DNA of 12,243 nt from Candidatus Zixiibacteriota bacterium (GTDB lineage Bacteria > SM23-81): positions 1 to 12,243 of the forward strand of contig DAOVRJ010000047.1 in NCBI GenBank assembly GCA_030628225.1, in the 5' to 3' direction. The notes beneath the pieces are model-generated. The model was given only the letters and a program-made list of their open reading frames with translations, did no database searches and had not been told where the DNA came from. Made by a program: the position numbers and the translations under genes. This document shows positions 1 through 12,243 of the stretch, piece after piece. Within the stretch, counting starts at the first letter, position 1, and the number at the start of each line of letters is the position of its first letter.

Positions 1-73
1 AGGGGCAAATTTAAAATTTGCACTTTGCACTTTTCATTTTGCATTTTTCATTTGGGGTGGTTGGGTTGGAAGG

Positions 74-262
74 GGGAGGTTTCCCCCTGGCTCCGGCCAG
101 CGTGCCCTGGGAGGGACCCGGGGCACCGGGGCGCTATAGGCGGCTGCGCCGCCGATGCCGTCCTTGCTCATCCGCTGCGGCCGGCCGCGCCCCTCGCCGT
201 CCTCCGCTACCCCCTCTTCTCGTGGTGAGACGTATGGTGCTGGTGAAGAGGGGAAACCTCCC
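74..262. repeat. GC-rich island bounded by 13-bp inverted repeats
   Basis: The 13-bp sequence GGGAGGTTTCCCC at 74-86 is repeated in perfect inverted orientation at 250-262 (GGGGAAACCTCCC). The enclosed 163 bp are far richer in G and C than the flanks and include a perfect 12-bp palindrome GCGGCCGGCCGC at 177-188. No open frame in it looks like a protein gene. A small non-autonomous element is possible, but no target-site duplication is evident. The right arm also overlaps the hairpin at 255-287, so the pairing may simply reflect neighbouring repeat units. Confidence 0.4.
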
Positions 263-287
263 GCGGGTTCCAAACCCGCGGGAGGTT
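255..287. repeat. 15-bp-arm hairpin with 3-nt loop
   Basis: AACCTCCCGCGGGTT (255-269) and its exact reverse complement (273-287) are separated by CCA. No T-run follows on either strand, so it is not a clear terminator. The arms are themselves partly palindromic (CCCGCGGG), which is typical of REP-like intergenic repeats. Confidence 0.6.
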
Positions 288-301
288 AAAACCTGCCTTG
301 A

Positions 302-374
302 GGGGGCAACGCCCCCGAAGAATCTGCTTTTTTTTTATTACCGGTTGACATCTAAAAGCAGATTCTTCGGGGGC
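302..374. repeat. Nested inverted repeat with 21-bp perfect arms
   Basis: The arm at 311-331 is exactly complementary to 354-374, with a 22-nt loop. The left arm begins GCCCCCGAAGAATCTGC. A second small hairpin, GGGGGC/GCCCCC (302-307 and 311-316, loop AAC), shares the left arm, so two alternative folds compete. The loop holds a run of T and the word TTGACA. It could be a MITE-like element or a secondary terminator beyond the one at 411-442. No transposase gene is in the window. Confidence 0.55.
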
Positions 375-410
375 GCTCAGAATGACACATTTTTACACCT
401 TCTCAAAAGC

Positions 411-442
411 AAAAAATAAAGGGGCTCAATATATTGAGCCCC
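411..442 (-). terminator. Rho-independent terminator of the seven-gene cluster
   Basis: On the minus strand, GGGGCTCAATA pairs with TATTGAGCCCC as a perfect 22-bp palindrome (421-442), followed at once by TTTATTTTTT (411-420). This is a GC-based stem plus a U-tract, the classic intrinsic terminator layout. It lies 128 nt past the stop of the outer-membrane barrel gene, the last gene of the minus-strand cluster. The plus-strand side lacks a T-run, so termination should be one-directional. Confidence 0.75.
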
Positions 443-570
443 TACAGACAAAATCAAAACGGTTGTTGGGGTGGATCGATCACGCCCGGTATTCGTTTTG
501 TCCCGCCTCTGCGAAAAAATCGAAGACCGTAGTGGGGGCAGAAGCTCCTACGAAAAAAAGCTTCCCGCGA

Positions 571-1920
571 TCAAAAACTACATTTAACCTTTAAATAGGC
601 CTCATCATTATCTTTCACTCTGCCGAAGGCGGTGGTGTTTTTGCCTTCTATAATGTGCGCTCCAAGCAAAATTTCTACATTGTCCATCGGATAGTACGTT
701 GTCTCGGGACCAAACAGGACTGCATAGTTGTTCTCTATGTCACCAAAGTCTTTGATTTCCACCCCACCACTAATGGGAGTTATTTTGAGTTTATCATCGA
801 GGATTTTCTTTTCTACACCAAAAACGACATAATCTTCAAGATTGTCTATGCCCCTCTCGTGAATAAATCCATGTAAATACTGTGCGTTAATGTAAACACC
901 GTTTTTGAAGGTATAATCAGCCCCAATAACGTACCTAATATAGGGTTTATCGTCCAAGGCAGTTTTCGTTTGGATGCCCATGCCCAGAGCAGTGAGATCT
1001 ATGGCCATTTCTACTTTTTCGGGGAAGAAAACAGCGCCCTCTGCCCAGATTCCCACCTCACCAATAGCACCAGCCATGTCACATCCCACAACCTGCATCT
1101 TGGGATAGATGAGTTTCGTCGATATATCAACGGTTCCCAGTGTGTCAACCGGGGTAATCCTGACATTTGTAGCCAAAGGAAGATCATCTCTTCCGTACAG
1201 ATAACTCAGAGAAAAATCCTGGCCAAGGAAATCTTTGGCTATTTTGAAAGCTGCTGTGGAGTTTTTCAATTTACTTTCAGGAGTCACAATCCGATCTTCC
1301 AACTTTCTTAAAGTGAGACCTGCAGGAATTTCCATTGGTGGAGAAAGCGCTTGAGCCCAATCTCCGGTCGGCAGAACCGCAGGAGTAAAAACCGGGATAT
1401 AACCCGCTGTCAGCGTGTAATCACCCAAGTAATAACTGGCCCTGACGGCGTTTGAGCCAAGATGTCTGCCGAAATCCCAGACGTCTTCTAGATCATCGGG
1501 GTTGAGATTATCTGTGGGATTGAGCTTGTCCGCAGTACCCCAGGCTATCCTCTGTCTGCCGATACGAATATCTAAATCGGGTAGTAGAAAACCGTACAAA
1601 TCCAGGTAAGCTTCTCTAACTGTCAAGTCCCAGGGTTGGACCTTGTCTTTCTGCGGTTCCATAAGCTCAGAGGAAGTCGTTACCTCAGGGAACCCAAAGC
1701 TTCTCACCCAGAGTTCGCTGTATATATGGGCTCCCTCTGTAGGTTGGGCGTCTATTTTTAAGTCAAGGAGGTTTTCATTCCACGAAAACATGTTATCCCC
1801 ACCAGTTTGCAGTCGAATATCGGCCTGAAGGTACCCGCCTATCTCCACCTGCGCGGCAGACAAGCCGGTAACCAATACAACCGTTGAGATTATCATAGAT
1901 GCTCCGATTTTATATAACAT
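571..1920 (-). CDS. Outer-membrane beta-barrel protein, DUF1302-like porin fold
   Basis: This 449-residue protein probably forms the outer-membrane end of the export cluster. Residues 1-23 look like a signal peptide: a short basic N-terminus, a hydrophobic stretch, then SAA before Gln. The mature part alternates polar and hydrophobic residues as in beta-strands and ends in phenylalanine (KVKCSF), the usual BAM recognition residue. The segment IGRQRIAWGTADKLNPTD (about 120-137) matches the GRQ..WG...NP signature I associate with DUF1302-type barrels, which are often encoded beside MMPL pumps and LolA-like proteins. The ATG start has GGAGG four bases upstream and follows the carrier gene by only 15 nt. 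A passive porin or an alginate-export-like channel is also possible. Barrel topology is confident; the passenger is unknown. Confidence 0.8.
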   Translation of the reverse strand: MLYKIGASMIISTVVLVTGLSAAQVEIGGYLQADIRLQTGGDNMFSWNENLLDLKIDAQPTEGAHIYSELWVRSFGFPEVTTSSELMEPQKDKVQPWDLTVREAYLDLYGFLLPDLDIRIGRQRIAWGTADKLNPTDNLNPDDLEDVWDFGRHLGSNAVRASYYLGDYTLTAGYIPVFTPAVLPTGDWAQALSPPMEIPAGLTLRKLEDRIVTPESKLKNSTAAFKIAKDFLGQDFSLSYLYGRDDLPLATNVRITPVDTLGTVDISTKLIYPKMQVVGCDMAGAIGEVGIWAEGAVFFPEKVEMAIDLTALGMGIQTKTALDDKPYIRYVIGADYTFKNGVYINAQYLHGFIHERGIDNLEDYVVFGVEKKILDDKLKITPISGGVEIKDFGDIENNYAVLFGPETTYYPMDNVEILLGAHIIEGKNTTAFGRVKDNDEAYLKVKCSF

Positions 1921-1935
1921 CGTTCCTCCATCTTT

Positions 1936-2757
1936 TCATCTGCGTTTTAGATAACGCTGCGTAAACAAATCGTCCTGCAAACCCTGGTCAAACTTGATAT
2001 CAATAATGACCATTCTGGTCTTGTGTTCTTTTTTAAGATCGGACATTTCCGTCTCTTTAGCCATCCAGTACCCCCCTTTTTTTTCTATCTTCCTTCTTTC
2101 CATCACCTTCCAGAGTTTCCCATCTTTGGAGTAATGTTCAATCCGGACTGGATAGAAATTGTCTTTTCCTATGCACATCACCAGCTTGGAATAGTCCTTC
2201 TTGACCCCTTCTTTTGGGGTGAGTTCAAGAAGATAGTGGTCAAGCTCCTCGTCCACCCATTTTTCCTCCTGCTCATCTTGTATCAGCACCAACCTTTTTT
2301 CTGTTCTGCTGCCGATTAACTCAGGATCGTACTCATCGGCATAATTGATGGATGCCATGTCATCGTACGTGAAGTCGGTGCCGGCAAAACTCTCATTCTT
2401 CACATGGGATGCAATTCGCCGTATCTTTTTAAAGGCAGGCAGATAGAGATACATCACATCATCTGGGAGGTCGAGAAAACCGATTCCCCTCTGGTCCGCC
2501 GGGGAGATGAATTTTATCATTCTCCTCTCATTCCCAATTTGCCACATTCTGGCTTCTCGTCTTTTCTCATTTCCGGCCTTGTTTATGAGGATCATCTCCA
2601 GCGTGATTTCCTGATCTACGGGTGCGTTTGCCACGGAATCGGCTTTCGTCAGGATCTGGAGAGCCGTGAGTTCTTCAGCATGTAGTATGCCCACCCGATA
2701 CGCAAATGGGCACATAGTCAGAAAAACAAGAGCGATGGACAGGATGGACTTTTGCAT
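1936..2757 (-). CDS. LolA-like periplasmic lipid or lipoprotein carrier
   Basis: This 273-residue secreted protein is of the outer-membrane lipoprotein-sorting (LolA-like) type found next to RND/MMPL pumps. Residues 1 to about 27 form a signal peptide (MQKSILSIALVFLTM, then a cleavage region near LHA-EE). Family-typical stretches are the redox-neutral beta core around RMIKFISPADQRGIGFLDL, MYLYLPAFKKIRRI, and ESFAGTDFTYDDM. The fold is a half-barrel that cradles acyl chains. I expect it to take a lipid from the RND pump across the periplasm to the barrel encoded next. The start at 2757 has AAGGAGG five bases away; a longer GTG-start version (2793) would overlap the pump stop and spoil the signal peptide. 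The gap to the pump gene is 32 nt. The family is confident; cargo identity is not. Confidence 0.85.
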   Translation of the reverse strand: MQKSILSIALVFLTMCPFAYRVGILHAEELTALQILTKADSVANAPVDQEITLEMILINKAGNEKRREARMWQIGNERRMIKFISPADQRGIGFLDLPDDVMYLYLPAFKKIRRIASHVKNESFAGTDFTYDDMASINYADEYDPELIGSRTEKRLVLIQDEQEEKWVDEELDHYLLELTPKEGVKKDYSKLVMCIGKDNFYPVRIEHYSKDGKLWKVMERRKIEKKGGYWMAKETEMSDLKKEHKTRMVIIDIKFDQGLQDDLFTQRYLKRR

Positions 2758-2762
2758 TTCTT

Positions 2763-2769
2763 CCTCCTT
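2763..2769 (-). promoter_or_regulatory. Ribosome binding site of the LolA-like gene
   Basis: AAGGAGG on the minus strand sits five bases before the ATG at 2757. It decides the start in favour of the version with an intact signal peptide. Confidence 0.8.
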
Positions 2770-2789
2770 GTTAGAGGTTAGCGGCCATT

Positions 2790-5729
2790 TCACTTATTCC
2801 CACTGATTCTATTCGACATTTTGGAGACCAGACCATTGGTCAATGCACCGAGCCTTCCGATAAACCCTGCCCTTGTCACCAAAAGAAGCGCGGGCAGGAT
2901 GGTAATTGACGCCGTGGCGCTGATTATCATCGTCAGGGCAATCAAGTAGCCAAAGCGCTGCATCGGAACGATGTTCCCCAGGACCAGCACCAGAAAGCCC
3001 ATCATCACCGATAGCGCATTGATGACGATTGCCTTCCCGGTTGTTTCCAGCGTCTTGTCAAGGGCCTCCAGCTCGGTCTTGCCGCGAGCATGTTCGGCCT
3101 TAAACCTGGTTATGAAATGGATTGTGTAGTCAATACCGATGCCAACCGCCACGCTGCCGATGAGAACAGTGACCACATCCAGAGGTATTCGGAAAATCGC
3201 CATTATGGTGAAATTAACGAGTATGGTAAAGACAATTGGAGTAATGGAGATAAGCCCACCGATGAGTGATTTCAGGCGGTAGGCGAGAAGGAAAAATACC
3301 AAGAGAATGGCGATGGAAAGGCTGAATGCCTGGCTTCTCATAATCTTCCTGTCGAGATCCATGTAAATTATAGGCATTCCCGTCTGCTGGGCAGAAAGTT
3401 CGGTCCGGTTCTCGACATCCTTTTCAGCGGACAGTTTCGTGTATTTTGAACTTGCAATGGTTGTCCGATCCTCGTTTATTTCCCAGACAGCGTCGCGCAG
3501 GTCGCTCAAGAATTCCTCATCACCTGCAAGGCCTTGGGGAAGAAGAGGTTTGATGCTAAGGATCAGGTTGTTTGTCCTCGCCCACCTTGTTTCATCCACG
3601 ATAATTGCCACAATCGATTCAGCGGCGTAGTCTACGGCCTCCGGGTCATCGGTGTATAGCGACTTGGGAACACCTCCTTTCAGAATGGTGATGATATCAT
3701 CCTCCCCCGTATTGCCCAACCGAAACGCATTGCCGATGTCAGCGACAATTGCGGTAATAATCTCTTCCGGTTCTATCTGGAAATCAGCATCGTCACTGTG
3801 GAGATGTTCGCTAATTTTTAACGCTATAACCTCAATTAAGGTATCGTCAAGTTCGCCACTATCGGCTGTCACTGCCGCGGCAACGGCCTTCCTTAGCTCG
3901 GGATTGTAAGCATTCCAGACGATGTTTTTCTGCCTAACGTCCCAATCTATCGCGGACAGTATTCGTTCAACTCGCTCTTTCTCCAGCTCTACGGCCAGCT
4001 CAGGGGAGGCGAGCGAAACCCTCACCTCAACCAAGTCGGTCCTCAGTTCGCCATATATGTATTCCTCGATCGCGCTGACCAGTGCCCGCATCTGTCTAGT
4101 GTTTACTGTTCCGAGTTTTGCCTGTATGAGCGCCTCGGAGCCGTCATCGGCCACAAGCTGATCCAACACCTCATTGCCCTCGATGAAGAACCAGAGATTG
4201 GCTACCCCCTCTCTGGTCTCGGGGATGGTATAGTGTCCGTTCATAACCCAGTTCATTTCGCAAATCAGGTCGGCAATAGACTGCGGGGCGTGGATATCAG
4301 GCTGAGCTTCCAGGAATTTCTCAAGCCTGAGCATTTCCTTCAGGACGAAGGGGTTTTTTAAATCTCCTTTGGCCACTATTTGAATGGGAATGGAACCACC
4401 GAGACTGTTCTCCATCATCTCCTCTGCCTGCCGGATTTCGCTGCTTTCCTTGAAGTAATCTATCATATTGACTTCACGACTCAGCCGGGGAATCATAATC
4501 AGCGAGAACAATACGACGAATGCACAGCCAGAAACGATGAGCTTCGTATTCCTGAGCACATACCCTCCCAGCTTATCCATCATCCTGGTCGACCACTCGG
4601 CCTCTGTCGCTTTGGCACTCAACTTGACACGTTTGACTTTCAAGAAGGAGAGCACCGCCGGCAGGAAGGTGACGGAGATTATCATGGCAAATGCCACGCC
4701 AAGGGCGGTAAAGACGCCGAATTCTCGTATCAGGTTCAGGTTGGAGGACAGGAATGCTAGGAAACCGATTAAAGTGGTGATGCCGGCAAGGAGTATCGGG
4801 ATACCGACTTCGCTCAGCGCGTCCTTTATCCCCTGTATTTTGCCGTCCCCCAGGCGGACATCCTCGTTGTACTTGGAGAGCATATGTATCCCGTATGCGC
4901 TGCCGATGGCAACAAGCAATACCGGCATTCCATCAGAGGCGATGGTCAGGGGAACTTTCAGCAAGCTCATGATTCCCAAAACCCAGACGGTGCTCATCAA
5001 TGCGCAGGAGAGAGGCAGGAAAACTCCCCGGAGGCTCCTGAAACTTATGAAAAGTATCGCCATAACCAAGATGATTACCAGAGGAATGAGTTTCTCTAAA
5101 TCGGACTGGATTATGTCGGTCAGGAAGATCATCTGGAACGGTATGCCGCCGTAATAGATTTTCTGGTCACCGTCTGTTCCCTCGACTATCTCTCTCATCA
5201 GGTGTCCGACAGCTATCTTATCGGTGTCCTCTTTTAATCGGGCAATGATTACCGTGATGTGCCCGTCGTCGGAAACGAGATTCCCCCGATACATGTCTTT
5301 GGAAAGAGTATAATTCCGCAATCGTTTCAGTTCTTCCGAATCTTCGGGGATATTATTCTTGTCAATGAGCTTGCCGATTTCCAGTCCCCATGCGGTCTTC
5401 TTGATATCGAGGATGTCGGTTAGGCTCATCACATGGGAGATTTCATCCAGCTCCTTGAACTGCCGTGTGATCTCATTTACTCTGGTCAGGTTTGTGTGAC
5501 TAAATGCGTCATCGCTCTCCAATGCCACCATGGCGAGCGAATTGCCCCCGAACGTATCCCCGACCTCATTGAAAAGCACTACTAATGGATCATCCTGTGG
5601 CAAGTAGCTCAGGATGTCGCTATTAATCCGCAGATCTTTTATGAAGTAAGCAAAAAACACCGTAGCGAGAATAGTTATTATAATAATTGCTACCCGGAAC
5701 TTAAGAACGAACTCAGCAAAAATTTTCAT
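2790..5729 (-). CDS. RND-superfamily transporter, MMPL/HpnN type, with enlarged periplasmic loop
   Basis: This 979-residue inner-membrane pump probably moves a lipid-like substrate outwards using proton motive force. Twelve membrane segments can be placed: about 11-31, five between 213 and 362, one at 396-414, and five between 800 and 950, arranged as two 6-TM halves. Half one carries IGSAYGIHMLSKYNED (about 275-290). Half two carries the matching VAVGIGIDYTIHFITRFK (about 860-877), whose Asp-Tyr is the family's conserved proton-relay position. The first periplasmic loop is about 180 residues, but the second is about 385, with an acidic helical insert (roughly 577-765). MMPL proteins of this type are more often nearer 750-900 residues. 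The ATG at 5729 has AGAGG suitably placed; the upstream TTG has no such signal. The close LolA-like and barrel partners support envelope export. Confidence 0.9.
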   Translation of the reverse strand: MKIFAEFVLKFRVAIIIITILATVFFAYFIKDLRINSDILSYLPQDDPLVVLFNEVGDTFGGNSLAMVALESDDAFSHTNLTRVNEITRQFKELDEISHVMSLTDILDIKKTAWGLEIGKLIDKNNIPEDSEELKRLRNYTLSKDMYRGNLVSDDGHITVIIARLKEDTDKIAVGHLMREIVEGTDGDQKIYYGGIPFQMIFLTDIIQSDLEKLIPLVIILVMAILFISFRSLRGVFLPLSCALMSTVWVLGIMSLLKVPLTIASDGMPVLLVAIGSAYGIHMLSKYNEDVRLGDGKIQGIKDALSEVGIPILLAGITTLIGFLAFLSSNLNLIREFGVFTALGVAFAMIISVTFLPAVLSFLKVKRVKLSAKATEAEWSTRMMDKLGGYVLRNTKLIVSGCAFVVLFSLIMIPRLSREVNMIDYFKESSEIRQAEEMMENSLGGSIPIQIVAKGDLKNPFVLKEMLRLEKFLEAQPDIHAPQSIADLICEMNWVMNGHYTIPETREGVANLWFFIEGNEVLDQLVADDGSEALIQAKLGTVNTRQMRALVSAIEEYIYGELRTDLVEVRVSLASPELAVELEKERVERILSAIDWDVRQKNIVWNAYNPELRKAVAAAVTADSGELDDTLIEVIALKISEHLHSDDADFQIEPEEIITAIVADIGNAFRLGNTGEDDIITILKGGVPKSLYTDDPEAVDYAAESIVAIIVDETRWARTNNLILSIKPLLPQGLAGDEEFLSDLRDAVWEINEDRTTIASSKYTKLSAEKDVENRTELSAQQTGMPIIYMDLDRKIMRSQAFSLSIAILLVFFLLAYRLKSLIGGLISITPIVFTILVNFTIMAIFRIPLDVVTVLIGSVAVGIGIDYTIHFITRFKAEHARGKTELEALDKTLETTGKAIVINALSVMMGFLVLVLGNIVPMQRFGYLIALTMIISATASITILPALLLVTRAGFIGRLGALTNGLVSKMSNRISGNK

Positions 5730-5827
5730 ATTTTCCTCTCTTATCAGTTCAAACTTCCAGAAATTCTGGTTTGGCAACGGGAAGGTGAGAAGCAGGTGGG
5801 GTGACCTTCCGAATACGATTTAAACAG

Positions 5828-5860
5828 TTGTAGGGGCGTATGGGCAATACGCCCCTACAA
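5828..5860. repeat. 14-bp-arm inverted repeat inside the cluster
   Basis: TTGTAGGGGCGTAT (5828-5841) pairs perfectly with ATACGCCCCTACAA (5847-5860) around the loop GGGCA. It occupies the 188-nt gap between the radical SAM and transporter genes, the widest gap in the cluster. There is no T-run on either side, so it is a poor intrinsic terminator. On the minus strand, TTGCCC and TTTAAA lie 17 nt apart starting within it, a very weak promoter match. It looks like an inserted dispersed repeat that could influence mRNA processing or downstream expression. Confidence 0.65.
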
Positions 5861-5917
5861 GCTCAGCACAAGCACCGCACCCATTTTTAACCAATTTCTA
5901 ATTGACCTGCAAATTTC

Positions 5918-7420
5918 TCATTTCGGGGGAGGCTTACAGGTCACGATTTCCAAGTCTGCATCAGGTTGCAGGTTCAATCTCTCCTCCCAGAGCGGATCGG
6001 TTAGTTTCCAGAGCTGGTGGTCAAATTCATCGATAGCCTCGAAATACTCCGGGTCTTCTAACGAGATGCGGGCGTTTTCATCTTCTGGCCGGGCATCGGC
6101 AGGGAGAATTTTTTCTCTGAAGTAACGGTAATGATCTCTTATGGAACAGGGGGCCAGAACATTTTTGGGGTGCTCGTCTAAATAACTGTACTTTTTCTGC
6201 CACTGTCTTCCATTCTTGAAGAAATCGCTCATCAGGGCGTCGAACACCGTTTTTCCAGCCTTGTAGACTTCCAGAATGTTGTCTTTGTAATATGGCACAA
6301 AGACACAGGGCATTATATTTCCGTTCCAGTCGATGTAAAAATATCCGCCACCTCTTCCATAGGCAATACAGCCGGTGCTTCCCGCTCCGCTATTCCAGAA
6401 GTCCCCGACGAAATACTGTTTTTCAAAAAGCAGCTTTTCCCAGAGGAGAAAGAGGTCCTTTCTCTCTTCAGGAGAGATCATCAAAGGGATGTTCTCTCTC
6501 GCTCTTCCGATGGGCATCAAATGGAACATCCACATATAAGTTGCCCCGACGTCCTTGAACCAGTAATCGTAAAACTCCTCTTTGCGCAGCAGGCTCATAT
6601 TTTGTTTAGTCGCCGTCACGGAGAGCCCGAAGGGAACGCCCACATCCTTTAACAGCTCCATCTTTTCTCGAATCCGCTTAAAAACCCCCTGACCCCTTCT
6701 TTGATCTGTCTCCGCTTCATATCCTTCAACAGAGATCGCTGGAGTGATATTTCCCGTTTTTTCCATCCTTTCCGCCTCTTCTCTTCCGATGGCCAGGGAA
6801 TTGGTATAGACGAGAAAGAAGACATCGGAGAATTCCTCTGCCAAATCTAAAATGCCTTTTCCCTCATCCTTCCACAGAAAAGGCTCTCCACCGGAGATCA
6901 CCACAAACCGAGAACCAGCTATATCATGCATCTCTTGAATTGTTCTCTTAACCACCGGGTAGGGTAAAGAAGCAGCGGTTTTAGCACTGCTGGAAGCATA
7001 ACAGCCGATGCATTTTAAATTACACTTCTGGGTGGGGGAGATGGTAAAGAAACCGGGAGGAGACTGCCCATATTTTTCCTCAAACTCCCTGCTCACCACT
7101 CCCCACCGATCTTTCAGCATTACTTTCTCGCCCATTACATCGACGATTTTGCCGGCGTAATGGGAGCTGATAAAGCCCCGGTCAATATTTTGCAGGGACT
7201 GCTTTATCAGGGCGATGATGAATCTGGACTTCACCTTCCAAAAATAGGGGATCCCCGAGCATTCATGTTCGGCAAGTATGTTCTCTATATCTCTCTCTGC
7301 TTTCCTCAGCAGAAATTCCCTTCCTTTCTTCCTGCCCAGGAGAAGACGAAGAGTTTCCAGAAGCAACTTCTTTTTCACTCCATAGGCGAGTTCTTTTGTT
7401 CTTTCTGCCACCGCGTACAT
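5918..7420 (-). CDS. Radical SAM protein with SPASM-like C-terminal cysteines
   Basis: This 500-residue enzyme should bind a [4Fe-4S] cluster and S-adenosylmethionine. The radical SAM motif CNLKCIGC supplies Cys133, Cys137 and Cys140, followed by Tyr-Ala. SGGEP (176-180) is the SAM-contacting GGE motif. A C-terminal stretch with Cys351, then IDWNGNIMPC (Cys372) and a later Cys425 resembles SPASM/twitch domains that hold auxiliary Fe-S clusters. The roughly 125 residues before the motif are basic and helical and may fix the substrate class. The substrate is unknown: no classic precursor peptide is adjacent, so the GNAT protein, the repeat protein or a lipid are candidates. Start at 7420: AAAGGAG is nine bases upstream; longer versions overlap the preceding gene. 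The gap to the GNAT gene is 22 nt. Family certain, reaction unknown. Confidence 0.88.
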   Translation of the reverse strand: MYAVAERTKELAYGVKKKLLLETLRLLLGRKKGREFLLRKAERDIENILAEHECSGIPYFWKVKSRFIIALIKQSLQNIDRGFISSHYAGKIVDVMGEKVMLKDRWGVVSREFEEKYGQSPPGFFTISPTQKCNLKCIGCYASSSAKTAASLPYPVVKRTIQEMHDIAGSRFVVISGGEPFLWKDEGKGILDLAEEFSDVFFLVYTNSLAIGREEAERMEKTGNITPAISVEGYEAETDQRRGQGVFKRIREKMELLKDVGVPFGLSVTATKQNMSLLRKEEFYDYWFKDVGATYMWMFHLMPIGRARENIPLMISPEERKDLFLLWEKLLFEKQYFVGDFWNSGAGSTGCIAYGRGGGYFYIDWNGNIMPCVFVPYYKDNILEVYKAGKTVFDALMSDFFKNGRQWQKKYSYLDEHPKNVLAPCSIRDHYRYFREKILPADARPEDENARISLEDPEYFEAIDEFDHQLWKLTDPLWEERLNLQPDADLEIVTCKPPPK

Positions 7421-7429
7421 CGTTCTCAT

Positions 7430-7436
7430 CTCCTTT
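7430..7436 (-). promoter_or_regulatory. Ribosome binding site of the radical SAM gene
   Basis: AAAGGAG abuts the in-frame ATG at 7429, which leaves no spacer, but is nine bases from the ATG at 7420. The latter is therefore the likely start, giving a protein that begins MYAVAERTKE. Confidence 0.7.
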
Positions 7437-7442
7437 CCGGTT

Positions 7443-8558
7443 TTAGATGGGCATCTCATAGATTCTGTATTTTTTATAGATTTTCCCTCCAATAGCCATG
7501 TCAAAACGGTTGATGAGATCGTTATCTTCTAAATTCCAGCCAAGTTCACCCCATTTGTAGCCTAATCGCTTAGCAGCTTTCTCCGTTTCATAAGACAGAA
7601 CGGCAATTATCCCCGTATTTCGGTATTCTTTTTTGACACCACCGATAAGGGAACGAACCCCCTCAATTTTTCTCTTATAACGTAGGAACTTTAATATTTC
7701 AATCGGTCCCAGTCTGCCGTTTAGCCTTTTCAACACATAATTTATGTCTGGAATAGTAACGGAGACTCCTATGGGTTCATTATCTATTTCCGCAAAGAGA
7801 ACAAGCTCTGGTTCTGCAAAGTATTTCAATTTCTTTGCTACTAGATCTATCTCCTTGTCCGTCATGGGAACAAATCCCCAATTCTTTTCCCAGGCAGAGT
7901 TATAGATATTTTTTAAATGCTGAACATCTCTTTCGAAGCTGTTCATAGCCAAGGGACGTATTATCACTCCGGTTTTCTTCTTTATTCTTTCTACCATTTT
8001 TCGAATCCGTTGGGGAATGCCATCCTCTACTTTTTTGTAAAAAGCATAGAGATCTTTTGCTTTCTGAAAACCATATCGTTCCGCAAACTCAAGATAGTAG
8101 GGTTGTGTATAGGGCATCATGACTGTCGGCGGTTTATCAAAACCATCCAGAAGAAACCCGCATTCGTCGTTCATACTTGGGCTTAGTGGTCCACGCATAA
8201 GATCCATACCATTCCATTTTAACCATCTTTTCGCCTGATCCCATAATAACCGGGCCACTTCAAAATCTTCTATGCATTCGAAAAACCCAAAGAATCCAGT
8301 ATTTTCTCCATGGAAATTGATATGGTTATCATCAAAAATGGCAACAACTCTCCCAGCGACTTTATCATCTTTTCTGACCAAAAACACCTCTCTTCTGGCA
8401 TGTTCCCAGAAAGGATGTTTTTCTGTATCGAGAGTATTTCGCACTTCACGTAAAACCGGAGGAACCCAGTGGGGGTTATCCCTATAGATTTCCCAAGGCA
8501 ATTTGAGAAATTGTCTCCAATCCTTTTTGGTTTTTAGATAAACTATTCTCATGCTCAT
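7443..8558 (-). CDS. GNAT-superfamily protein with two GNAT-like halves, YghO-like
   Basis: This protein of about 371 residues resembles the uncharacterised GNAT family that includes E. coli YghO. The N-terminal half runs from KTKKDWRQFLKLPWEIYRD through HPFWEHARREVFLVRKDDKVAGRVVAIFDDNH to GFFECIEDFEVARLLWDQAK. The centre has the characteristic MRGPLSPSMNDECGFLLDGF (about 121-140). The C-terminal half has a GNAT-like core: EPIGVSVTIPD, then GVKKEYRNTGIIAVLSYE (about 307-324), the expected acetyl-CoA pyrophosphate-loop position, though the loop is poorer in Gly than the usual (R/Q)xxGxG/A. It may acylate an amine, or the acyl-CoA site may be degenerate. The start is uncertain: ATG 8558 has only GAAG nearby, ATG 8552 is possible, and a TTG at 8606 would nearly touch the preceding gene. 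It is flanked by the repeat protein and radical SAM genes. Confidence 0.75.
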   Translation of the reverse strand: MSMRIVYLKTKKDWRQFLKLPWEIYRDNPHWVPPVLREVRNTLDTEKHPFWEHARREVFLVRKDDKVAGRVVAIFDDNHINFHGENTGFFGFFECIEDFEVARLLWDQAKRWLKWNGMDLMRGPLSPSMNDECGFLLDGFDKPPTVMMPYTQPYYLEFAERYGFQKAKDLYAFYKKVEDGIPQRIRKMVERIKKKTGVIIRPLAMNSFERDVQHLKNIYNSAWEKNWGFVPMTDKEIDLVAKKLKYFAEPELVLFAEIDNEPIGVSVTIPDINYVLKRLNGRLGPIEILKFLRYKRKIEGVRSLIGGVKKEYRNTGIIAVLSYETEKAAKRLGYKWGELGWNLEDNDLINRFDMAIGGKIYKKYRIYEMPI

Positions 8559-8617
8559 TTCAACTTCAGATTCTTCAAACGTTTGGGTTTTTTGTTCTGT
8601 TTCCAAACAAAAAATTT

Positions 8618-9043
8618 TTATTCTTCTTTCTTTTTAAAAACCTCTTTTGCACCTTCAGAGAGACCTTTTAAAGCGTCCCGGGCCATTTCTACTGCTTTAT
8701 CACCCGCTTCCCTGGCAGCCTCCAGAGTTGCCTCGGCGGCATATGCGGAAAGATCTGCCGCTTTTGCGCCAGCTTGCTTGGTTCCCTCAACGATGCCCCT
8801 GGCAGCCTGCTTGGTTAACTCTACGGCTTTTATCTTTGTCTCTTCGGCCCCTCGAATAACTCCTTTCATAGCATCTCTGGCCACTGCTTCCACTTTTTCT
8901 TTAGTAGGCTCGGTTTTCTCCAATGCTTTCCTAACAACCTCTCTGGTAATTCCAGCCACCTTTGTTCTCAGATCCTCACCCCGCTCAGCCGCTCTCACCA
9001 CCGCCTCTTTGACAGCTTGGGTGACCTTACTTTGCTCTTCCAT
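8618..9043 (-). CDS. Small amphipathic protein of six 22-residue repeats, apolipoprotein- or synuclein-like
   Basis: The 141-residue product is rich in Ala, Lys and Glu and contains no Cys, Trp or Pro-rich breaks, so it should be almost wholly helical. From residue 14 it divides into six consecutive 22-residue units (14-35, 36-57, 58-79, 80-101, 102-123, 124-141, the last incomplete). Each has Lys at its fifteenth position, and most open with a small or aliphatic residue. KGVIRGAEE, RGIVEGTKQ and KGLSEGAKE recur at the same phase in three of them. Tandem 22-mers made of 11-mers are the hallmark of helices that lie on lipid surfaces (apolipoprotein A, synuclein, LEA proteins, some phasins). 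With no signal peptide it would be cytoplasmic. AAGGAGGAG precedes the ATG. A lipid-droplet or membrane-surface role is inference; a stress-protective LEA-like role is the alternative. Confidence 0.8.
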   Translation of the reverse strand: MEEQSKVTQAVKEAVVRAAERGEDLRTKVAGITREVVRKALEKTEPTKEKVEAVARDAMKGVIRGAEETKIKAVELTKQAARGIVEGTKQAGAKAADLSAYAAEATLEAAREAGDKAVEMARDALKGLSEGAKEVFKKKEE

Positions 9044-9120
9044 GATTCTCCTCCTTAATCAGCTCGTCGAGAGCATCTCTCTGGCGATATTGCCCCTCCA
9101 TCTAATACAGTTTCCACCTT

Positions 9121-9717
9121 TCACCTGTGAAAAGGAATATATCTTTTTACAATTCCATTAAAAAGCACATCCAGCAATTTGTCAATATTCTTTTCTACTT
9201 CTGGTAAAGGTGTCTTCACTGTCCACGGGTATTCCAGACCTTTTAATGCTGAAATAATGGAAAAAGAAGTCAATTTTATGTCCCGGATTACAAAGACACC
9301 TTTTTGTACACCCTCTTTCAAGATTGCTTGAATTGTCTCTATTTCCTGTCGAAAGTTTCTCTCGCGTATTTCCTCTATAAAGGCATAATGGTCTAAATAA
9401 TCGTCTTTCAGCGCGCTATGGATGTTGGCCAGCTCGTTGAGATGTTTCATCCGGGTCTTCACATAGGCGCTGATCTTTTTTTGTGGAGCATCGACTTTGC
9501 GAATTGCCTCCTGAATTTTTTCTGTTAAGAATTGATGTTCCTGTTCAACAACCTCTCGAAAGATGTCTTCCTTGCTCTCGAAATAATGATAGAGGGATGC
9601 CTTGCCCATGCGAGCGGCTTTGGCTATTTCCCCCACAGTTGTTTTGAGAAAACCATATCTGGAAAATATCTTCCGTGCCCCCTGGGTGATGATTCCTTTT
9701 TTAATCGTTGCCTTCAA
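9121..9717 (-). CDS. TetR/AcrR-family transcriptional regulator
   Basis: This 198-residue repressor-type protein has the TetR N-terminal DNA-binding domain. FSRYGFLKTTVGEIAKAA (18-35) leads into the helix-turn-helix, and MGKASLYHYFESKEDIF (37-53) contains the recognition helix and the hallmark YxYFxSKE. The helical C-terminal part (about 60-198) is the variable ligand-binding and dimerisation domain. It is the first gene after a strong promoter, and the six genes behind it run the same way. I infer autoregulation and control of the whole cluster, with the exported compound or a precursor as inducer. GAGGAGG lies eight bases before the ATG. TetR regulators next to RND pumps or fatty-acid genes commonly work like this. 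The family is certain and the ligand unknown. Confidence 0.92.
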   Translation of the reverse strand: MKATIKKGIITQGARKIFSRYGFLKTTVGEIAKAARMGKASLYHYFESKEDIFREVVEQEHQFLTEKIQEAIRKVDAPQKKISAYVKTRMKHLNELANIHSALKDDYLDHYAFIEEIRERNFRQEIETIQAILKEGVQKGVFVIRDIKLTSFSIISALKGLEYPWTVKTPLPEVEKNIDKLLDVLFNGIVKRYIPFHR

Positions 9718-9764
9718 TGAAATCCGCCTCCTCTAATTTTCGACCATTTCGGTTTTGCGTTCCA

Positions 9765-9793
9765 AATATAACACATTTTTTGTCTCTTGTCAA
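9765..9793 (-). promoter_or_regulatory. Near-consensus sigma-70 promoter of the seven-gene cluster
   Basis: On the minus strand, a perfect -35 box TTGACA (9788-9793) and a -10 box TATATT (9765-9770) are separated by exactly 17 bp. The -10 box lies about 47 nt before the tetR-type ATG at 9717. Nothing comparable was seen in the short gaps further down the cluster, so this is probably the main promoter. A promoter this close to consensus would need a repressor to be silent, which fits the TetR gene behind it. Confidence 0.8.
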
Positions 9794-9799
9794 GTGTTA
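9769..9799. promoter_or_regulatory. Possible TetR operator overlapping the promoter
   Basis: TAACAC (9769-9774) and GTGTTA (9794-9799) form an inverted repeat 19 nt apart that brackets the -35/-10 spacer. The smaller palindrome CTTGTCAAG (9786-9794) overlaps the -35 box. Either could be the regulator's binding site by position. The arms are short and could arise by chance. Confidence 0.3.
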
Positions 9800-9880
9800 A
9801 TTTGTTTTTTTTTGAGTTTGGGTTTCTTGGAATGTTATTCTTGTGAGGAATTTATCTGGCTGGATTGAGCTGAAGGCCGA

Positions 9881-9943
9881 GACTCGAGACTCGAGATTCG
9901 TTAAAAGAATAACCCGATCCTGGATCCTGGATGCTGGATGCTG
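9881..9943. repeat. Heptanucleotide-periodic repeats
   Basis: GACTCGA, GACTCGA, GATTCGT follow one another at 9881-9901. Then four 7-mers, GATCCTG twice and GATGCTG twice, occupy 9916-9943. A third block, GATTCGA-GACTCGA-GATTCAT, lies at 10134-10154. All three have a 7-bp period and share the frame GAY-N-C-K-R, so they look like diverged arrays of one unit. Heptads do not preserve a reading frame, which argues against coding. Confidence 0.6.
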
Positions 9944-10010
9944 GTTTAAAGCGACAATAAAAGCTCGATGCTGGGTTGACGTTGTCGAAAAGTTGGGAGA
10001 ACTTCTCTTC

Positions 10011-10099
10011 TGTCATTCCGGCGAATGCCGGAATCTCCGCATTGGCCGTATTCTTCACTTGTTTTGCTTTCGGAGATGCCTGCATACGCAGGCATGACA
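10011..10099. repeat. REPIN-like doublet: two palindromic REP units in inverted orientation
   Basis: The left unit has a hairpin ATTCCGGC/GCCGGAAT with loop GAAT (10015-10034). The right unit has ATGCCTGC/GCAGGCAT with loop ATAC (10076-10095). The outer 28-base segments match each other as inverted repeats at 23 of 28 positions, running inwards from TGTCAT at the left end and ATGACA at the right. About 33 bp lie between the arms. Paired palindromic units of this build are the known form mobilised by RAYT (Y1-like) transposases, none of which is in the window. Confidence 0.65.
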
Positions 10100-10251
10100 A
10101 TACTTTTCCAGCTTCGAGCTTCGTAAAAACCGGGATTCGAGACTCGAGATTCATAAAATCAGCGGACTTATGATATGTTTTACGATTCCCGAACCTCAAA
10201 CCCTTTTTAAATCTTCGCTTTAAGCAACCTGGCACCAGTGGGATGCCAGCG

Positions 10252-12021
10252 TCAAGACCATTTCGCTCGACCAAGCAACTTCATGAAATTCCGCTTGCGT
10301 TTGTGCGCCGCGCGGACCGATTCCAGGTATCGGGCGAATTCGCTGCTCCGACCCAGCCGGTCCATCAGATGGCGGATCTGCCGTAGAAATCCCACGGCCC
10401 TCCGGTAGGCTTCATTGTTCGTTTGAGCCAGAGTCGGCTCGATCTGCTTCTGGTAGGCGGTCAGGGCGTCCTGGGGGTGATCCTTTTCCCGCTTGGCGGC
10501 CAGCTCCAACCAGAGATCGTTGGAACAGCCGCCCTCCTGGGCTTCGCGCCAGGCGGCCTCGACGTCCTTCTCCCAGAGGAAAATCCGCACCAGCTCCGAA
10601 TGGTCGGCCCGGAAGAACTGTGGCCAACGCTTTTTCTGCGATTCCCGCTTCGCCTTCGCTATCTGCTCGCGTATGGTGGCCAGGGCCTTCGCCCGCCAGA
10701 CCGGCCACTGGCTGATCCGGTCGGAGTGTCTCTTCAGGTTCCGATACTGGGCCAGGGATGGCTGTTCCGTGAACGTGGCCCAAACGAGAGCCATGGCCTC
10801 GTCATGACGTTTCCGGCGGTGGTACTCTGTGGCCAGGAGCTCGCGGAGCCTCCAGTCGGTCTGCTGCGGGAAAGCCTTTATCCCACGCTCGGCCCACTCC
10901 AGCGCCAGATCGCGCTTGCGCGCCTGCTGGTAGGTCTCGGCGATCTGGAGATAATCATACGCGGAGGAAAGGTCGCGCTTCATGACGGCGACGATCGCCT
11001 CGACATCGCCGCTCTGGCGAGCCAGCGTCTCCATGATGTGGGTGATCCGGAAGCGTTTCCCCCACTTGTCGGGATCATCTTGCCCGGGTTTCAGTTCCGG
11101 GACGCGCGCCCACTCCTTCTCGGCGAGCTGGCGGTACACGGCCAGACCTTTCTTGCCCAGAACCCGGGCATACGTCTCGGCCGCGCCAGAGAACGTGTCC
11201 CAGTCTGCATGAAGCTCCCACTCGAAGAGGCGTCGGGCCAGTTCCTCGGGGTTCGGTTTGGCCTTCCGGCAGGCATCGAGATGAAGATCCTGGAGCCTTG
11301 CGAGGATGTCACCCATGAAGCCGTCGGAGTCATCGACTTCGTTTATGGCCTCCTCGACCACGGTCAGGGCGTGCTCGGCGAGATCGATGACCTCCGCAGC
11401 ACAGCCTTCCTTGAGCAGCTCCGCGATCGAGTCGATAGTGTCATGGACGCCCCGGATGTAGTCGTACATCTCGTCATAGCGGACGAAGTCGTCGGGTTCG
11501 ATGGCCCTGTCGATGACCTGGTGGTAAGCCGCCAGATCAAGCCCTGCGGGCCTTCTCTTGGCCGCCGTGAGGAGTAGCCGCTGACGCAGGTGAAAGTCCT
11601 CCATGGCCTGCTTCATGAGCATATCGACCACCTCGTCCTTTTCCAGCCCGGCCAGATAGGCACGGACATCGTCCATGGTGACGGCGGGTTTGGCGGTCTT
11701 CTTGGGAGCCGGCCTGCCCTCGGAGCCTTGCTCGAGCCAGGTCAGACCGACTGCCACGCAGTGCTTGCAGAAGGCCCCATCGGTTCCCACAGGACAGGTG
11801 CACGAGAATTCGAGGTTCCCATCCGCGGCCCACAACTTGACGCGATACTCCCGCGTCCCGATGACACCGGCCGTGATGATCCCCTCATGCTCCACCAGGG
11901 AACGGACCCGCTCTCTTGTGAAGTAGTCCTCTCCCCTTTGGAACGAGCGGCCCCACGCCATCCGGCGCAGGATATGCCGGTCCAGGATATCCTTCAAGAC
12001 GTGTTCACTCGAGATACCCAT
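10252..12021 (-). CDS. SWIM zinc-finger protein with TPR-like helical C-terminus
   Basis: The 589-residue product carries a SWIM zinc finger of the form CxC-x8-CxH: Cys74 and Cys76 in FSCTCPVG, Cys85 and His87 in FCKHC. SWIM domains bind zinc and mediate nucleic-acid or protein contacts. The preceding part (WGRSFQRGEDYFTRERVRSL) is the usual lead-in of bacterial SWIM proteins. Residues 110 onward are long, charged and helical. About 355-425 (YLQIAETYQQARKRDLALEWAERGIKAFP) is TPR-like. There is no helicase or nuclease domain, though SWIM proteins often accompany SNF2-type ATPases. The function is unknown. The start at 12021 has GAGGTG just upstream; a GTG at 12087 falls inside a repeat and is unlikely. 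The gene is visibly more GC-rich than the seven-gene cluster, with many GC-ending codons, suggesting a different origin. It stands alone. Confidence 0.85.
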   Translation of the reverse strand: MGISSEHVLKDILDRHILRRMAWGRSFQRGEDYFTRERVRSLVEHEGIITAGVIGTREYRVKLWAADGNLEFSCTCPVGTDGAFCKHCVAVGLTWLEQGSEGRPAPKKTAKPAVTMDDVRAYLAGLEKDEVVDMLMKQAMEDFHLRQRLLLTAAKRRPAGLDLAAYHQVIDRAIEPDDFVRYDEMYDYIRGVHDTIDSIAELLKEGCAAEVIDLAEHALTVVEEAINEVDDSDGFMGDILARLQDLHLDACRKAKPNPEELARRLFEWELHADWDTFSGAAETYARVLGKKGLAVYRQLAEKEWARVPELKPGQDDPDKWGKRFRITHIMETLARQSGDVEAIVAVMKRDLSSAYDYLQIAETYQQARKRDLALEWAERGIKAFPQQTDWRLRELLATEYHRRKRHDEAMALVWATFTEQPSLAQYRNLKRHSDRISQWPVWRAKALATIREQIAKAKRESQKKRWPQFFRADHSELVRIFLWEKDVEAAWREAQEGGCSNDLWLELAAKREKDHPQDALTAYQKQIEPTLAQTNNEAYRRAVGFLRQIRHLMDRLGRSSEFARYLESVRAAHKRKRNFMKLLGRAKWS

Positions 12022-12024
12022 GAT

Positions 12025-12030
12025 CACCTC
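12025..12030 (-). promoter_or_regulatory. Ribosome binding site of the SWIM gene
   Basis: GAGGTG on the minus strand precedes the ATG at 12021 by three bases (five from the GAGG core). It supports this start over the GTG at 12087, which begins inside a palindromic repeat. Confidence 0.6.
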
Positions 12031-12065
12031 AGTTTTGCAGGAACATTTTACGGTCGGCGCATTAG

Positions 12066-12180
12066 TTGCGGTGGGGTGATGTCCCACCGTACAGTTGTTA
12101 AGTGCCGTCGGGTGGCCTCACCCGACGGTCCATCAACATCCTTACGCGGCGTCGGGTACGGTGACCCGACGCCACCGCAA
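12066..12180. repeat. Composite inverted-repeat element upstream of the SWIM gene
   Basis: Outer arms TTGCGGTGG (12066-12074) and CCACCGCAA (12172-12180) are exact reverse complements. They enclose two further hairpins with related arms: CCGTCGGGTG/CACCCGACGG (12105-12114, 12119-12128) and GGCGTCGGGT/ACCCGACGCC (12148-12157, 12164-12173). CGGTGGG also pairs with CCCACCG (12069-12075, 12083-12089). The two inner hairpins share the core GTCGGGT, so they are copies of one unit. The element ends 44 bp before the SWIM start codon and may overlap its leader. Confidence 0.6.
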
Positions 12181-12203
12181 AACTGCCGTCGGCTGAATGC
12201 GCG

Positions 12204-12229
12204 GGTGTGGGACAGCAACAACCCACACC
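12204..12229. repeat. 8-bp-arm hairpin near the window edge
   Basis: GGTGTGGG (12204-12211) pairs with CCCACACC (12222-12229) around a 10-nt loop. It continues the run of palindromes upstream of the SWIM gene. No T-run follows. Confidence 0.5.
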
Positions 12230-12243
12230 AACCAGTGAGAAAC

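Follow-up and report, generated by a model that had tools for sequence, protein, structure and literature searches.

A candidate operon for making, tailoring and exporting a ceramide-type lipid in a Zixiibacteriota bacterium

Introduction

What does a bacterium move with an RND-type pump that is encoded together with a LolA-like carrier, an outer-membrane barrel and enzymes of lipid modification? The question is raised by a 12,243-nucleotide stretch of a Candidatus Zixiibacteriota bacterium (assembly GCA_030628225.1, contig DAOVRJ010000047.1, positions 1 to 12,243; hereafter the window), in which seven consecutive open reading frames (ORFs) on the minus strand, confirmed at the positions first reported for them, span 571-9717 (Table 1). 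A first-pass annotation had taken these genes as one self-contained system that makes or alters a hydrophobic molecule and exports it. The present analysis largely supports that proposal, with an equivalent full set in another phylum, several partial versions and a pump linkage above chance, although the seven genes do not form an obligatory unit. From the sequences and their neighbourhoods we propose a ceramide-type lipid as the most likely molecule, one that the radical S-adenosylmethionine (SAM) enzyme of the cluster would modify and an RND/LolA/barrel route would export. That the whole is a lipid-responsive operon, which would make such a lipid, modify it and deliver it to the outer membrane, is a reading to which we give even chances.

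Results

The acyltransferase belongs to the ceramide synthase family

The third gene had been labelled a GNAT. A weak GNAT match is indeed present in Pfam/NCBIfam, but the label missed a more specific identity, that of a ceramide-synthase paralogue. By sequence the protein is a full-length homologue of the bacterial ceramide (N-acyl) synthase family YghO/CerS, with 35% identity to Escherichia coli YghO over 370 aa (E 6e-74); a sequence search of the PDB gave no useful match for it. In the literature yghO and Caulobacter CC_1154 are given as one and the same gene, that of a ceramide N-acyltransferase (PMC9386255). The neighbours of yghO in E. coli AVS0193 include spt, the genes of an acyl carrier protein (ACP), an epimerase and an acyl-AMP ligase, and two that carry the annotations lptF and lptG.

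The association of this family with Spt was measured in a domain-wide sample of 386 genomes, in which the acyltransferase counts are approximate as they derive from the best matches listed. Spt was found in 95 of 117 listed genomes with the acyltransferase (odds ratio 46, Fisher 4e-46), and among these matches the two genes lay within 10 kb of each other in 61 genomes, against about one expected. The window genome itself encodes Spt on another contig, C39 (39% identity to E. coli Spt, E 8e-88), together with a CerR-like gene and a second CerS paralogue. This second paralogue (locus L173, 2461-3567) carries one in-frame TAA and may be a pseudogene or the product of an assembly error, in which case the window copy would be the sole intact one.

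In the tree the window gene does not group with the canonical Spt-linked CerS clade; it falls in a distinct clade (support 95/100) which takes in every locus that has TetR, patatin or the pump as a neighbour, but no row adjacent to Spt or CerR. The pump shares the contig in four rows of this clade (the window, L032, L061 and L135), and in one more (L136) the barrel does; in the remaining rows, whose contigs end close by, there is a TetR gene, in some cases with ACP and patatin. One row of branch length 10 (L162_none) is a badly cut sequence and was ignored.

Such a topology allows for a paralogue whose amine substrate has changed, so that the operon would make and export a hydrophobic N-acyl lipid other than a sphingolipid, such as a lipid built on an acylated amino acid or amine. 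The clade never adjoins Spt and keeps partners of its own (TetR, ACP, patatin and PlsC), the pattern to be expected if the paralogue had taken on a new substrate. However, all ten genomes that carry the clade, the window genome included, encode Spt (P 5e-6 against the sample rate), and the two paralogue classes, YghO included, have 42 invariant residues in common, all of them kept in the window protein, with a single position cleanly separating the classes. We consider this explanation less likely than a ceramide-type lipid.

The radical SAM enzyme probably shares a family with Mss

The radical SAM identity given at first is borne out by PF04055; what had been missed is a family that probably includes the membrane-spanning lipid synthase Mss. 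The protein shows the CX3CX2C motif together with C-terminal auxiliary-cluster cysteines that mark a radical SAM/SPASM enzyme: C161, C165 and C168, and C379, C400 and C453, in the numbering of the long ORF, are invariant in 52 homologues. The model is confident (pLDDT 89.7) and contains a radical SAM barrel and a SPASM-like region. A scan of named genomes retrieved relatives in Goldiibacteriota (56%) and Aminicenantes (53%), and also in Latescibacterota, WOR-3 and Anaerolineae, followed at 34-37% by Pseudothermotoga, Thermosipho, Clostridium and thermophilic Clostridia; a scan of viral contigs gave no match. The identification of Mss in Thermotoga maritima was verified by expressing it in E. 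coli (PMC11604127). Membership of Mss is defined by a BLAST E value of at most 1e-30 and more than 30% identity to a verified Mss, and the comparison made here is with named homologues rather than verified Mss, that of Pseudothermotoga giving 37% and E 6e-64. It is on these named Thermotogales and Clostridia homologues that the probable inclusion of Mss rests.

The radical SAM gene is also found no more than two genes away from Spt in two genomes (G003, locus L045, and G331, locus L213), against 0.16 linkages expected (P 0.011). The L213 cluster contains TetR, patatins, a phasin, a UbiB-like kinase, a CDP-alcohol transferase and a GT2 gene. Within it (8919-13001) the radical SAM gene lies two genes from Spt and a CDP-alcohol phosphatidyltransferase directly follows Spt, and the cluster is possibly one for a modified phosphosphingolipid.

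The enzyme might instead be a membrane-spanning lipid synthase with ordinary glycerolipids as its substrate, the operon building and placing glycerol-based membrane-spanning or coupled lipids with the acyltransferase as an accessory. The E values of the enzyme against family members from Thermotogales and Clostridia (about 1e-60 to 1e-64), a family phylum list that resembles the published Mss matches (PMC11868695), and the presence of PlsC and a diacylglycerol (DAG)-kinase-type gene in L032 all agree with it. Nevertheless, the radical SAM tree splits in two (SH-aLRT 100) with the window enzyme in the sister clade of the Thermotogales and Clostridia members, the homologues compared are named and not verified Mss, and most of the Thermotogales and Clostridia loci examined have no such pump beside the radical SAM gene. 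Glycerolipids are thus an improbable substrate.

The pump, the carrier and the barrel form a conserved core

The pump passes the Pfam MMPL profile PF03176 (200 bits, gathering score 20.5) and falls below the cut-offs of the NCBIfam equivalogs for HpnN (143 of 752 bits) and BstA (43 of 1400 bits). The carrier passes LolA_like PF17131 (182 bits, gathering score 30). A Pfam scan of the barrel protein found no family at E<=0.01, and the name DUF1302-like given to it previously is left without support; its homologues all end in SF. Its model is all-beta, with outer-membrane porins as the best Foldseek matches, and since confidence is low (pLDDT 44.5) only the all-beta character is used. The three genes stay together in about 12 genomes, in most of which a related TetR gene precedes them, in agreement with the earlier statement that they recur as a set. 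An ordinary drug-efflux operon was considered and rejected: there are no membrane fusion protein/TolC-type partners, and a LolA-like carrier and lipid enzymes are found instead.

The most complete counterpart of the window is L032, a locus in a genome of another phylum, with the order TetR-MMPL-radical SAM-...-LolA-barrel-phasin-UbiB-DAG kinase-PlsC-methyltransferase-acyltransferase. It has the genes of the window, except that a phasin and a coiled-coil protein replace the amphipathic protein, and adds the UbiB-like kinase, the lipid kinase, PlsC and the methyltransferase. Partial versions are TetR-MMPL-acyltransferase-LolA-barrel (L163), barrel-acyltransferase-patatin-PlsC (L164), MMPL-acyltransferase-patatin-LolA-barrel-...-radical SAM-KAS III (L061) and the radical SAM gene joined to MMPL (L058 and L059). 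Among loci selected by the radical SAM gene, the MMPL subfamily of the window occurs in 3 of 79 (0.015 expected, P 5e-7). In the 386-genome sample pump and acyltransferase are likewise linked above chance, in two cases against 0.10 expected with the window genome excluded. There the linkage of radical SAM gene and pump is borderline (P 0.054), reaching significance only in the larger set selected by the radical SAM gene; that of radical SAM gene and acyltransferase, the window genome left out, is not significant (P 0.18), and no Spt gene lies within 10 kb of the pump. On the radical SAM tree the pump association is scattered, nine pump-linked rows requiring nine changes, which points to repeated assembly of modules.

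Patatin-like phospholipase, KAS III, PlsC, phasin and UbiB-like kinase genes recur beside the acyltransferase or the radical SAM gene (L061, L158-L160, L164, L213, L050 and L034), a wider set of lipid genes that merits separate study.

Could the window simply hold two adjacent units, TetR-amphipathic protein-acyltransferase-radical SAM and a pump set for another hydrophobic cargo, brought together by chance? The 188-nt gap before the pump, which the first-pass annotation regarded as its weak point, is real and contains a palindrome, and the pump core exists without these enzymes in many genomes. Moreover, Thalassolituus oleivorans has a natural MMPL-LolA fusion beside a porin, induced on the n-C28 alkane, the porin being proposed to pass alkanes (PMC6304351); by analogy with this alkane-induced fusion, import by the pump set, possibly of hydrocarbon, may be envisaged. 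On the other side, the two modules are found together in other phyla more often than chance predicts, and their TetR regulators are of one subfamily. The palindrome lacks a T-run after it and was not called by the terminator scan, so that the sequence does not force transcription to stop there. A chance neighbourhood is accordingly a doubtful explanation. That the radical SAM/SPASM enzyme is instead the maturase of a ribosomally synthesized and post-translationally modified peptide exported by the pump is very improbable: among solved structures it comes nearest to SPASM enzymes that modify peptides or proteins (anSMEcpe, Z 23.7; SuiB, 23.4; SkfB, 22.8), but no obvious precursor peptide lies between the window genes, the genes found repeatedly nearby are lipid genes (patatin, PlsC, KAS III, phasin and Spt) and the carrier is LolA-like.

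Organisation and origin of the locus

Gene starts were refined from Shine-Dalgarno (SD) sites and the N-termini of homologues (Table 1), leaving gaps of about 77, 59, 22, 188, 32 and 15 nt in gene order. Both control elements described before are plausible. The promoter is one of only two 11/12 matches in the window, the other being inside a gene, and the terminator-like palindrome stands 3' of the barrel gene. Together with the gap element this palindrome belongs to a genomic repeat family, TGTAGGGGC...GCCCCT, of which the window has two copies (420-446 and 5828-5860), one serving as the predicted terminator and the other placed in the gap before the pump; four further sites are on contigs C23, C48, C75 and C170 of the same genome (G000). 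A 15-bp perfect inverted repeat lies at 255-287, near the left end of the contig, and an Rfam search of the window gave no match.

Table 1. Features assigned in the window (strand given where defined)
Feature	Position	Strand	Evidence
Sigma-70-type promoter, TTGACA-17-TATATT	9765..9793	-	11/12 consensus bases, TG before -10; 48 nt upstream of TetR start
TetR-family regulator	9121..9717	-	Start 9717 (TTG), SD GGAGG; PF00440 E 5e-16
141-aa Ala/Lys/Glu-rich amphipathic helical protein, apolipoprotein/phasin-like	8618..9043	-	Start 9043; Apolipoprotein profile E 2e-4, below cut-off
YghO/CerS-family (bacterial ceramide synthase) N-acyltransferase, pump/TetR-associated paralogue clade	7443..8558	-	Start 8558 (or TTG 8606); YghO homology, invariant residues, tree
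Radical SAM/SPASM enzyme of probable Mss-containing lipid family	5918..7420	-	Start 7420; PF04055, cysteines, model, tree
14-bp perfect palindrome (inverted repeat) between the radical SAM and MMPL genes (188-nt gap)	5828..5860		Member of genomic repeat family
MMPL/HAE3-type RND inner-membrane transporter	2790..5729	-	Start 5729; PF03176 E 6e-59; TIGR00921 E 2e-87, below cut-off
LolA-like periplasmic lipid carrier	1936..2757	-	Start 2757; PF17131 E 9e-54; signal peptide by eye
Predicted outer-membrane beta-barrel	571..1920	-	Start 1920; signal sequence; C-terminal ...KVKCSF; model; Foldseek
Intrinsic-terminator-like palindrome	420..443	-	12+12 perfect palindrome, then T-rich tail

The best NCBIfam match of the regulator is a FadR-type fatty-acid regulator (E 5e-15, below cut-off), and the protein is 33-76% identical to the TetRs that adjoin the acyltransferase, radical SAM or MMPL genes in other genomes. 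The 141-aa protein reaches 21.5 bits with the Apolipoprotein profile of Pfam, below the 90-bit gathering score, and a Pfam scan gave no phasin match; its helical hydrophobic periodicity at 98.5 degrees exceeds that of all 2000 shuffles. Phasins are present in the equivalent clusters L032, L193, L195 and L213.

A point missed by the first-pass annotation is that the window pump was not detected in the three relatives that were sampled within the phylum. The operon has a G+C content of 46%, compared with 62% for the neighbouring gene and 59% for the Spt gene of the same genome, and together these data make horizontal acquisition likely. The neighbouring gene, upstream of the operon at 10252-12087, encodes a SWIM zinc-finger/DUF6880 protein and likely marks the border of the acquired DNA.

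Discussion

We propose a pathway in which the TetR protein, as its family suggests, would sense an acyl-CoA or a lipid and control the operon. The YghO/CerS paralogue would then N-acylate a long-chain base supplied by the Spt encoded elsewhere, a reaction consistent with its family membership and its co-occurrence with Spt, and the radical SAM enzyme, to judge from its family and its neighbourhood with Spt, may modify or couple an acyl chain of the ceramide-type lipid. The amphipathic protein could coat or hold the hydrophobic intermediate. Finally, MMPL would lift the lipid from the inner membrane, the LolA-like carrier would cross the periplasm and the barrel would receive the lipid at the outer membrane; the families and their conserved clustering underlie this last step, for which cargo and direction are predictions. 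As a more specific and tentative extension, the locus would be a dedicated make-and-export route for a radical SAM-modified, possibly C-C coupled or membrane-spanning, sphingolipid, in which a second ceramide synthase and an Mss-like enzyme would share the cytoplasmic work and the product would reach the outer membrane by an RND-LolA-barrel path, not an Lpt-like bridge.

Several points weigh against a ceramide-type lipid made and exported by a single operon. A single transcript across the 188-nt gap, the substrate and the direction of transport are predictions from sequence. The presence of Spt in ten of ten clade carriers is not significantly above that in the other carriers of the YghO family (85/107, P 0.20). 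The pump core is also found in genomes without a strong Spt match (e.g. G342, G084 and G209), so the cargo may vary. The model of the radical SAM enzyme is nearer to the peptide-modifying SPASM enzymes (Z 23-24) than to the lipid enzyme Tes, the tetraether synthase (16.9), and the fold alone thus gives no substrate. Furthermore, most acyltransferase and radical SAM homologues have no pump within 10 kb; taken strictly, this goes against the earlier view of one self-contained unit, and the association is therefore modular.

Each part resembles a known system. Bacterial ceramide biosynthesis, described in Caulobacter and E. coli, involves Spt, AcpR, AasR, CerR and CerS/YghO (PMC9386255, PMC11324152). 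The window acyltransferase is a full-length homologue of the last, Spt and a CerR-like gene are present elsewhere in the genome, and related loci add ACP; unlike that pathway, the window has a paralogue of a separate clade, accompanied by TetR, the radical SAM gene and the MMPL-LolA-barrel set. The export genes proposed in Caulobacter are LptC2/F2/G2 and a flippase, with no RND pump (PMC9386255, PMC11324152), whereas the window has one. The radical SAM enzyme is, by homology, probably of the same radical SAM/SPASM family as Mss of Thermotoga and Clostridia, a family of diverse and largely anaerobic phyla, but it differs from Mss in its sister clade, in inserts near the auxiliary-cluster cysteines and in its association with CerS/Spt and the pump, and it is known from sequence alone. 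The pump shares the MMPL/HAE class of RND transporters with HpnN (hopanoids) and BstA (sterols), with partial profile matches, yet it scores far under both equivalog cut-offs and its partners are a LolA-like carrier and a barrel. TOL_3187/TOL_3188 of T. oleivorans likewise combine MMPL and a LolA-like domain, fused there, beside a porin, and are expressed on very hydrophobic compounds (PMC6304351); they are however tied to growth on alkanes with a proposed role in uptake, and no radical SAM or CerS gene is described with them. A literature search of open-licence papers found none joining these parts. The parts are thus of known kinds, and the combination and the two sub-clades, of the acyltransferase and of the radical SAM enzyme, are undescribed in the open-licence literature searched.

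The transfer of bacterial sphingolipids from the inner to the outer membrane was stated to be unknown in papers of 2024 (PMC11324152, PMC11087976). A CerS-family enzyme encoded in one operon with a complete RND/LolA/barrel set is a concrete and testable candidate for sphingolipid transport, in phyla far from Caulobacter. The occurrence of a radical SAM enzyme of the probable Mss family beside Spt and CerS suggests that there is a so far unrecognised class of sphingolipids, coupled or modified in another way; such lipids would matter for the lipid biomarkers of anoxic environments. In the window itself, a second copy of CerS, a radical SAM enzyme related to those that couple lipid tails, and a pump, carrier and pore under one regulator suggest a dedicated route by which an unusual lipid would be made and brought to the outer membrane.

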